Part shown: positions 1,269 to 62,260 of the stretch, piece by piece
Numbering within the stretch: position 1 is the stretch's first letter
How the letters are laid out: each line of letters starts with the position of its first letter
From: Nereocystis luetkeana
Taxonomy: Eukaryota; Sar; Phaeophyceae; Laminariales; Laminariaceae
DNA: 64,000 bases
Assembly (NCBI GenBank): GCA_031213475.1
Contig: JARUPZ010000013.1
Location: 8,517,338-8,581,337, forward strand
Direction of reading: 5' to 3'
The notes under the pieces: generated by a model
Told to the model about the DNA's origin: nothing
The model's input: the letters and a program-made list of their open reading frames with translations, nothing else
Database searches by the model: none
Program-made: the position numbers and the translations under genes

Positions 1269-4200
1269 CTGAAAAAGCGACGCATCCAGGAATGACAAAA
1301 ATCGGGGGCCGATGAGTAAAAAAAAAAAAAAGCCAGTGATGTCGAAATGGCGAAAAGGAGACGATGGGACGGTCCAGAGAGAGAGGGAGGGAGACAGGAG
1401 GAGACGGAGAGATACGTAAAACGTTTCAGCCTCCCATGGCAGAGGGGGTAATAGGCATCGATATGCGACACCACTACTGGAAGACCAATAGGCATATTCA
1501 ATAGGCTATTATTCAGCGTGACTCGAAAGAGAACGGGAGAGAGAGAGAGGAACTTCGAGGAGATAGACAAGCATTCTGTCCCAAATTATAAGGAACTTTT
1601 GCATATTAATATTCAACCAAATCGGTAGTTAAAAATCGGAAGAGAGTGGTATGTGGAGAAACCTATCTTGATGAGGCTCGACATCATTGTACCGCAACAA
1701 CTAATTTATTTACGTTGCGCGTCTGAAAGAAACTCCTGCGATTACCGCCACTACCGCTAGAATGTGTTGCTCACGGAAGGCAACACTCGCACAGCGTCTG
1801 CCACTGCTACGTCAATGCGTACTTTCACGCCTCACGTCGACGCACCCTTGTGAAGTAACACCGCTAGGTACAACAGTGACGATGCTGATGATATGCAGAC
1901 GGATTTTCACGACTATCCGGTACCTGGTATGTCTATCTCAGTGTGCCCCACGGAAGACCTGCTATGTACTACCTGGTAGCATATATTTACGTATATGAAT
2001 CTAGACCCCCCCCCTCCCCCTATTGCTGTCTCTGGAAATGCCTACACCGGAAATTAAATCAACTCATTGAAGCTGTCGTCCATATGCAAGTCCGCCTCAC
2101 AAGCGGTTCTTAGTAGGATGCAGCTCACCCTTCATGCGATTCGCCAGACACCTCACGGCGCTTCGCGCTTGGTGCAAGCAATGTCTGCCTGGTCGGTGAA
2201 AACCCGACATGCTCCGTCCCGGCACTGTAGGGATGCGAGGGTCTATGGTCATACGACTACGGCTATGCATGAGATCGAGTACATCTCTCCTATCGAGTAC
2301 ACCCCTCCCCCTATCCCCCGGAACAGAAACCCCACCTCCTTCTCCTCGAAAGCCCGAACGATCGCTCCCGCGGGAGCAACGCCGACATCCTGGGCAAAGA
2401 ACTCGGGGTCGGTGCGAACGGTGACCTGTCTAGCGCACACCATGTACCTGCCAGATAAATCCCATAGACCGGCGGCAACCGGAGAGCAGGAGCAAGAGGA
2501 AGAAACATAAAACATACATAGAGCGGGCGCGGCAACGGAACTGTGGGCTTACCCGGGCAAGAAAAAACACCGTGGGAAGACCCTCTCCGACGAAAAAAAA
2601 CAAGATCGAGTCAATCAAAATCGCCCGATCAATTTTTGAATAGGCAGAACACACGACGCACGCAAGACCCTGAAGCCGCGCAAGCCGCAACAGCTCCATC
2701 AACCCCGCGCAAGCCCCGAACGGTTGCCGTACCCCCCTCGTCCCGCCCTCCCTTCCCCCGCCCCTCTCCCCACCTCCCCCCCCCTCTCGCTCGGTGCTCG
2801 GTCTCGAAAGGGATGCGTGGTCAATGGCCAAATGACGAAGCCGAGCAACATATCGGTACCCCCCGTCCCCCTCCACCCTTTCTCTTCCGGCATTGCAGGA
2901 ATGCGAGGGTCTACGGTCACACGACTACGGCCATGCATGACACGAGTACTCCCCGCCTCCCCGACCCGTTCTACGATATAGAGGTAGCACATTTCCGCTA
3001 GTTTGTTTCTGAAAGACGGGGTTCCTTGACCCGAAGTCGTCGAAATGCCAGTCTTGGTTTCGAAAAAAAACGTTTCGTAGACTCGGGCCATGGGACTATT
3101 CGCTGCGATGCAATTCGATTTTTGCTGAAGTCGGTTTTCGGGTGAGGTATGGAGCTCCTCAAGTGAGGAGCCTCAGAAAATTTAGGGTGAAGCTCTATCG
3201 TAGAACGCCTCCCCCCCCTATTATATAGGTTGGGTTGGCGTCGGTTGGCAATGACACACGTAAAACATGTCGCTCACTACGTAAGCTAGACAAACCAGGT
3301 TATCGTTTTATGGTTGTTTTGTTTTGGCGGTCGGACACAGCTGGTTGTCGAGTTAGATCATTTGTGCGAGGTGAAGAATCTTTACTACGCGCAAGTGGGA
3401 ATTATCGTATCACGTATCACGTAGTGTTCAAGGTAAGACACCCAGGAGGCAGCTACATAGTGTTCCCATCGCTGTCTCTGGAATTGCCTACACCGGAAAT
3501 AAAGTGAACTAATTGAAGCTGCCATCCATATGCAAGTCCGCCTCACAAGCGGCTCTTAGTAGGATGCAGCTCACCCTTCATGCGCCTCGCCAGACACCTC
3601 ACGGCGCTTCGCGCTTGGTGCAAGCAACGTCTGCCTGGTCGGTGAAAACCCGACATGCTCCGTCCCGGCGTTGTAGGGATGCGAGGGTCTATGGTCATAC
3701 GACTACGGCCATGCATGAGATCGAGTACATCTCTCCTATCGAGTACACCCCCCCAACTCTCCCTCCACATTCTACCACCCCCACCTCCTCCCACCTGGTT
3801 CCCTTCCCCCCCCCCCCCGCCCCACCCCGTCTATGGTCATACGACTACGGCCATGCGTGATACTGAGTACCCCCCCCCCCCCCCCCCCCCCCCCCCTCCA
3901 CCCTCGAGTATCCCCCCTTCCCAAACGCCCACCTGTTGCCGTCGCACGTCGACGGCGGTGCAGGCTTCGTGGGAGGTGGTGCAGCCTTCGCAGCGACGGG
4001 TGCCCGGGGCGGCCTCTCGGCGTCTGCAGACGAAGGAGGAGGGCCGCTGTTCGCCGCCGCCACGGAAGCCTCGGGTACGAGGAGCTGCATCGTCGGGGTC
4101 TGCGACAGCATCCACGCCTCCTGCATTGCGTTGGAAACCCCGGGCGGGTGTCGCCGGGGGGGGGGGGGGGGGGGGGGGGGGGAGGGTCCGAGGGCTTAGA

Positions 4201-62260: not shown

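Follow-up and report, generated by a model that had tools for sequence, protein, structure and literature searches.

TACCWGGTA in the genome of Nereocystis luetkeana: a probable excision footprint of a TA-inserting DNA transposon

The window analyzed here, a stretch of 64,000 nucleotides of contig JARUPZ010000013.1 from Nereocystis luetkeana, raises the question of how one 9-nt near-palindrome, TACCWGGTA, came to lie in it so many times. A first-pass annotation had given 38 start positions, and every one of them proved exact, with no copy beyond these: 23 read TACCTGGTA and 15 read TACCAGGTA, which are one motif on two strands, and since the motif is palindromic its central W is not assignable to a strand. 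A first-order Markov model gives an expectation of 0.45 copies for the window, so the 38 represent an 85-fold excess. Among words of the form TA-N5-TA, CCAGG/CCTGG accounts for these 38 and the runner-up for 9, and the one-letter neighbors of TACCWGGTA total 33 over 17 words, with 1 to 4 each. One of the 38 sites, at 52074, falls within the stop-free frame 52065-53393 of an RBM5-like gene, two long frames having been checked. The RBM5/RBM10-like gene itself spans 52065-58781, with an OCRE match above the cut-off and a weak RRM match below it.

The excess extends well past the window. A 264-kb sample, in which the window is joined by a further 200 kb made up of a 10-kb stretch from each of contigs 1-20, holds 98 copies against 2.5 expected under a second-order model, and 60 of the 98 belong to the added 200 kb. 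Across the whole genome the count reaches 182,395 in 465,085,209 bp, or 1 per 2.55 kb. By arithmetic, equal base use would give about 3,500, and the reversed pattern, counted as a control over the whole genome, occurs 1,744 times, a difference of ~100-fold. The annotation had read the motif as an excision footprint and had proposed a genome-wide count as a check; the reading survives it. The putative footprints in the window, with variants and copies of a second repeat discussed below, are as follows.

1921..1929, + strand, putative footprint TACCTGGTA, exact match
1970..1978, + strand, putative footprint TACCTGGTA, exact match
6108..6116, + strand, putative footprint TACCTGGTA, exact match
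8205..8213, + strand, putative footprint TACCTGGTA, exact match
8295..8303, + strand, putative footprint TACCAGGTA, exact match
10613..10621, + strand, putative footprint TACCAGGTA, exact match
12606..12614, + strand, putative footprint TACCTGGTA, bare TA in three short (33 bp) paralogue alignments
14823..14831, + strand, putative footprint TACCTGGTA, exact match
14839..14847, + strand, putative footprint TACCAGGTA, exact match
18171..18180, - strand, 6-nt variant TACCAGGGTA, own flanks below average for target preference
18924..18932, + strand, putative footprint TACCTGGTA, exact match
19828..19837, - strand, 6-nt variant TACCAGGGTA, variant match
21702..21710, + strand, putative footprint TACCAGGTA, exact match
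21747..21755, + strand, putative footprint TACCTGGTA, exact match
21980..21988, + strand, putative footprint TACCTGGTA, exact match
26508..26516, + strand, putative footprint TACCAGGTA, exact match
28615..28623, + strand, putative footprint TACCAGGTA, exact match
28629..28637, + strand, putative footprint TACCTGGTA, exact match
29361..29369, + strand, putative footprint TACCAGGTA, exact match
29692..29700, + strand, putative footprint TACCAGGTA, exact match
32493..32501, + strand, putative footprint TACCAGGTA, exact match
32824..32832, + strand, putative footprint TACCAGGTA, exact match
34891..34899, + strand, putative footprint TACCTGGTA, adjoins mutated footprint (TGCCTGG)
35124..35132, + strand, putative footprint TACCTGGTA, exact match
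36862..36870, + strand, putative footprint TACCAGGTA, exact match
38052..38060, + strand, putative footprint TACCTGGTA, paralogue L007:1687-1783 (99%) with bare TA, another (94%) with TG
40316..40331, + strand, putative double footprint TACCAGGTACCAGGTA (40316 + 40323), bare TA in 45.64 kb paralogue
43183..43191, + strand, putative footprint TACCAGGTA, exact match
45561..45569, + strand, putative footprint TACCTGGTA, exact match
48013..48121, no strand, MITE A copy with flanking TAs, end pairs
48183..48191, + strand, putative footprint TACCTGGTA, exact match
49081..49089, + strand, putative footprint TACCTGGTA, 22 of 23 other copies of the repeat family TG at site
50156..50164, + strand, putative footprint TACCTGGTA, exact match
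50178..50286, no strand, MITE A copy with flanking TAs and TTACGGGGGACC ends, positive control, likely footprint TATTAATA
51619..51627, + strand, putative footprint TACCTGGTA, directly adjoins MITE A copy
51626..51734, no strand, MITE A copy with flanking TAs, end pairs
52074..52082, + strand, putative footprint TACCAGGTA, in long stop-free frame 52065-53393
54710..54725, + strand, putative double footprint TACCTGGTACCTGGTA (54710 + 54717), exact match
59355..59363, + strand, putative footprint TACCTGGTA, exact match
60016..60024, + strand, putative footprint TACCTGGTA, exact match
60234..60242, + strand, putative footprint TACCTGGTA in MITE A copy, bare TA in 35 of 42 paralogue alignments

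Other repeats occupy the same window. A SINE-like dispersed repeat of 300 bp lies at 1967-2266, 3413-3712, 12201-12500 and 48782-49081, with C-rich stretches coming after several of the copies. A hairpin-like family, TTAACCCCTTTAGAACCGCAGTCCC...GGGTTAA, of ~98 bp (31719-31816, 32197-32294, 41222-41319, 44715-44812 and others) resembles a TTAA-target MITE. Palindromes cluster around CTGCGAGTACTCGCAG at 39310-47900, all but one of the 13 strand hits of AGTACTCGC fall between 39.3 and 47.9 kb, and an imperfect TTAGGG-rich stretch lies internally to the contig at 49430-50110.

Whether the motif is a later addition at TA or an ancestral part of the repeats that carry it was a further check named in the annotation. 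Each scar was swapped for a bare TA and its flanks were searched against all sequence collected, for 113 sites, each double counted as one site and the loci L005 and L006, which overlap, excluded. Spanning paralogues were found for 23 of the 113, and TA stands at the site in most or all paralogues for 19 of these 23, ties included, in favor of later addition. The 19 include a duplicated pair (L028) with the motif in both copies and one tie, 38052, with one TA and one TG paralogue; some paralogues scored as TA have scars of their own (L012, L028). Of the four exceptions, two have TG, one CA and one a gap, and TG could reflect a later or an earlier transition. The best single case is again 38052, with 99% identity over 97 bp to CACG-TA-TGCA in L007. 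In the array at L012, some repeat units have bare TAs, and at the TAs of others stands a whole MITE, a TTAA scar or the CCWGG scar, single or double. Three of the four insertion pairs to which the annotation had pointed hold up on alignment (60.23 versus 50.22, 40.32 versus 45.64 and 55.37 versus 7.6 kb); the fourth, at 49.08 kb, does show an insertion of 7 bp, but at the site 22 of 23 paralogues have TG and not TA. The addition is one of 7 bp at a TA target, as opposed to the TTAA target and traceless excision of piggyBac.

The sequence around the motif is itself structured. With 21 doubles and near-doubles removed, the set comprised 88 sites and hence 176 half-flanks. In 151 of these, W stands at ±7 from the TA (background ~52%), and in 133 the letter adjoining the TA is R (background ~60%); the letters between these two positions are A-rich, and beyond ±8 the composition is near the background around all TAs. 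Such a palindromic preference centered on TA is the mark expected of a dimeric integrating enzyme. R is preferred beside one TA and Y beside the other, so that the two preferences complement each other and no third base is repeated, in contrast to the 3-bp target duplication of PIF/Harbinger elements. The idea that the flanks are remnants of a longer inverted repeat was rejected, there being no clear signal beyond ±8. The preference also fits the TAs of the scar itself, and this may explain an excess of head-to-tail doubles with a common TA, of which there are 5 in 264 kb; the window, for which 0.8 are expected, has 2. The target profile alone is not specific, since high scores also go to AT-rich words and to GGACC, which forms part of the repeat MITE A.

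MITE A offers a positive control. It is mostly 105 bp long, with TTA...TAA ends and terminal letters TTACGGGGGACCAT, and has 35 end pairs in the sequence collected (~32 copies, as 3 pairs have a right end in common with another), with TA on both sides in 26 of the 35. Outside the window, copies with TA duplications lie for example at L012:7645-7753 and 8398-8506. T, A and C at -3, -2 and -1 occur in 35, 28 and 39 of 58 TA-adjacent MITE A flanks, and in 79, 88 and 78 of 148 half-flanks of TATTAATA. TA-TTAA-TA is seen 70 times in 264 kb against 1.8 expected, and TATTAATA is most simply, and likely, the 2+2-nt footprint of MITE A, with TTAA left by its TT...AA ends. The matching target letters make it very probable that footprints carrying the target signature of their element exist in this genome. 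TA-CAG-TA, by comparison, is enriched 2.4-fold (104 versus 43.2 expected in 264 kb), has W at ±7 in 50% (n=110) and is without the CCWGG target preference; the scar that carries it is the 5-nt CCWGG and not a Sleeping Beauty-type 3-nt C(A/T)G. TA-CGAG-TA is also enriched in 264 kb (49 versus 10.0 expected), and both words may have been left behind by further families with a TA target, similar to Minos and Sleeping Beauty.

Rarer and longer scars point to the end of the element. In 264 kb, TACCAGGGTA has 9 copies and TACCTGGGTA 2, with W at ±7 in 89% of the CCAGGG class (n=9) and 25% of the CCTGGG class (n=2), so that the target signature is found in the former class only. Among 100 matches listed of the 18,890 to TACCAGGG, TA comes next in 41 (~6 expected; 8 of the 41 are one tandem array), and the other 59 include A-TA 7 times, G-TA 5, T-TA once and C-TA 0 times. 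The reversed control for TACCAGGG was uninformative, at 22,900 exceeding the pattern itself, probably because GGGACCAT is part of the MITE A end. The tandem array, G000:C1:1304145-1308385, has units mostly 528 bp apart with TACCAGGGTA at each of 8 listed places, and the 6-nt scar is copied along with it. From the 6- and 7-nt scars, CCAGGG and CCAGGGA/G, an element end of CCAGGG(A/G) was predicted, and such an element was then found: TA-CCAGGGATGCGTATTTCC...GGAAATACGCATCCCTGG-TA, ~990 bp.

One copy, L013:5457-6454 on contig 5, is 998 bp long and reads TA-CCAGGGATGCGTATTTCC...GGAAATACGCATCCCTGCCTGG-TA. It occupies the second TA of an older TACCTGGTA and has terminal inverted repeats, with 17 identical letters, CAGGGATGCGTATTTCC, at both ends. 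Its right end has four extra letters relative to the left, which we read as a CCTG duplication; a pair on contig 1 has CCAGGGATGCGTATTTCC at both ends and no such duplication. The L013 copy is non-coding, its longest stop-free run being 111 codons. Genome-wide, TACCAGGGATGCG, in which one later letter is constrained, marks 17+25 = 42 ends against 3+0 in the control, although of the 4 ends among the 42 that were read, the one at C1:2962580 departs from the others beyond GATGCG and could have matched by chance. The 42 ends include five +/- pairs, of 986, 993, 995, 993 and 993 bp. These pairs and the L013 copy have TA on both sides, with the search pattern itself beginning in TA, and the CCWGG and CCAGGG scars match the end letters of the element, as excision would leave them. 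TA duplication, terminal inverted repeats and a putative footprint of end letters between two TAs are features in common with the IS630-Tc1-mariner superfamily, pogo included.

The genome search returned no DDE_3 transposase match, a count that is a lower bound, and at least 28 DDE_1 matches; at 20 DDE_1 loci, none of the inverted end pairs listed (at most six per locus) starts with CCWGG. Two of the DDE_1 elements, L039:235-2422 and L042:168-2399, are ~2.2 kb long with ends TA-CAGTACCGGCC. The exact 20-letter element end had no match in viral contigs, and a dinoflagellate spliced leader had none at up to 5 mismatches. In 264 kb, half-sites TACCWGG and CCWGGTA separated by under 1,200 bp form 16 inward and 19 outward pairs, with no excess; L013:5457-6454 is among the pairs. 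Three candidate elements were set aside: L012:7235-8537, where a perfect inverted match of 25 bp links two motifs, is an array of repeat units in inverted orientation with scars at the same TA; TACCAGGGCCACGC... belongs to a longer repeat whose conservation starts upstream of the motif and extends beyond it (L049 and L050 are 91% identical across 1,688 aligned positions); and TACCAGGGCCCAGCCCTA looks in L024 like an inner part of a different TA-flanked element with ends GGGCTGGGCCC. L024:7438-7951, TA-flanked with inverted ends GGGCTGGGCCCTG, is perhaps another TA-target family.

The best explanation, to which we assign a probability of about 0.88, is that TACCWGGTA is the excision footprint of a TA-inserting cut-and-paste DNA transposon with a terminal inverted repeat starting CCAGGGATGCGTATTTCC. 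Much of this, a TA-target transposon known by its footprints, had been suggested in the annotation, and it now finds support in the target preference, the control provided by MITE A and TATTAATA, the longer scars that predicted the element end and the intact elements flanked by TA. In the pathway that we envisage, the transposase inserts the element at TA and duplicates the TA, as the TA on both sides of intact elements shows. To judge from the scar, excision would cut the 3' ends flush with the element and the 5' ends at a point 5 nt within it, leaving a 3' overhang CCAGG on each flank. By analogy with Sleeping Beauty, the overhangs would anneal by CC/GG with a single A-A mismatch and be joined, and repair of the mismatch to A or T would yield TA-CCWGG-TA. 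Such repair would account for a center that is nearly always A or T; in 344 kb, G or C is found there 4 times versus 119 for W, as the mismatch model predicts. Cuts one or two nucleotides deeper could produce the rarer CCAGGG and CCAGGGA scars that are observed, and re-insertion beside an old scar with a second excision could produce the observed doubles. Given that the L013 copy is non-coding and the five pairs are of near-equal length, an autonomous relative must supply the transposase. With tens of matching ends for ~182,000 scars, most scars must derive from vanished elements or from relatives with only the first letters in common, and the link from scar to element rests on 6-7 letters.

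That disproportion, over a thousandfold, is also what would be seen if the scars came from programmed removal of elements by the host, as with the internal eliminated sequences of ciliates, and not from ordinary transposition. Internal eliminated sequences are likewise bounded by TA, but their elimination leaves a single TA and not a 7-bp scar, the sequenced genome would have to be already past elimination and yet remain inherited, and host genes as agents are not indicated by this analysis; we consider such removal very unlikely. Still less likely is that selection has maintained or multiplied the motif because it binds a protein or is functional as a palindrome in some other way. Its 9 bp, near-palindromic and very sharp, and its flanks structured to about ±7 would suit such a role, but the motif enters unrelated repeats as an exact 7-bp addition at TA, forms head-to-tail doubles with a common TA, varies to 6 and 7 nt by extension mainly one way and matches the ends of intact elements, and its flanks resemble a target preference centered on TA.

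Short templated or slippage insertions at TA during break repair, with no transposon involved, could be proposed as the source of the motif, and the doubles, 5 in 264 kb and 2 in the window for 0.8 expected, speak for them. The central letters of the five are AT in 2, TA in 1, AA in 1 and TT in 1, however, and tandem slippage would not yield the 3 that differ. To put the same 5 letters into ~182,000 places, with symmetric target preference, takes an enzyme that has a target site, and intact elements with the predicted end exist. We regard break repair as the least probable of the three.

Excision of a TA-inserting transposon, the reading that we favor, has known parallels. The Sleeping Beauty footprint is C(A/T)G, with one central mismatch, and its overhang is 3 nt, in contrast to the 5 nt (CCAGG) that we propose here; the end letters of our element are unrelated to the Sleeping Beauty ends, and the L013 copy is non-coding. 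The TA target, TA duplication and inverted repeats are like those of Sleeping Beauty/Tc1/mariner, as would be a staggered cut inside the 5' ends with the 3' overhang as footprint; one account places the first Sleeping Beauty nick 3 nt inside the element and equates footprint with overhang (PMC7827188). Stowaway MITEs are short, non-autonomous and TA-flanked, with relic end letters at the donor site (PMC3660474, PMC4561436). Like Stowaway MITEs with plant mariner-like transposases, the present element is TA-flanked and non-autonomous and would leave end letters at the donor; unlike them, it has the inverted repeat CCAGGGATGCGTATTTCC, few intact ends and extremely many scars. For the brown alga Ectocarpus, 17 Mariner-Tc1 families with almost 12,000 copies, mostly non-autonomous, are described, and the words "footprint" and "excision" do not occur in the main text of that paper (PMC12477816). 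Among the papers that literature searches listed, mostly free of subscription, no description of TACCWGGTA as a footprint or of footprints at such a scale came to light. The transposon footprint is known as a type of event; what appears new is the 5-nt CCWGG with ends CCAGGGATGCG and the scale.

A further possibility, which we offer tentatively and think rather unlikely, is a hit-and-run transposon: a single family, with TA as its target and an overhang of 5 nt, would have gone through ~200,000 jumps or expulsions in one lineage and left hardly any copies, excision being nearly obligatory and the host perhaps assisting in it. If so, the scars would form a genome-wide layer of 7-bp insertions amounting to ~1.3 Mb. 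One orientation of each scar contains CAG/GTA, the consensus core of a splice site, and under the same assumption the scars might seed splice sites.

Transposon footprints have usually been studied locus by locus. The single genome of N. luetkeana holds ~182,000 apparent excision records of seemingly one transposon, a set large enough to read from sequence how targets are chosen, how faithful repair is and how fast transposition proceeds. The ratio of scars to copies poses the question of why so mobile a family left few copies, and predicting an element end from rare longer scars, then finding the element, may work in other genomes.
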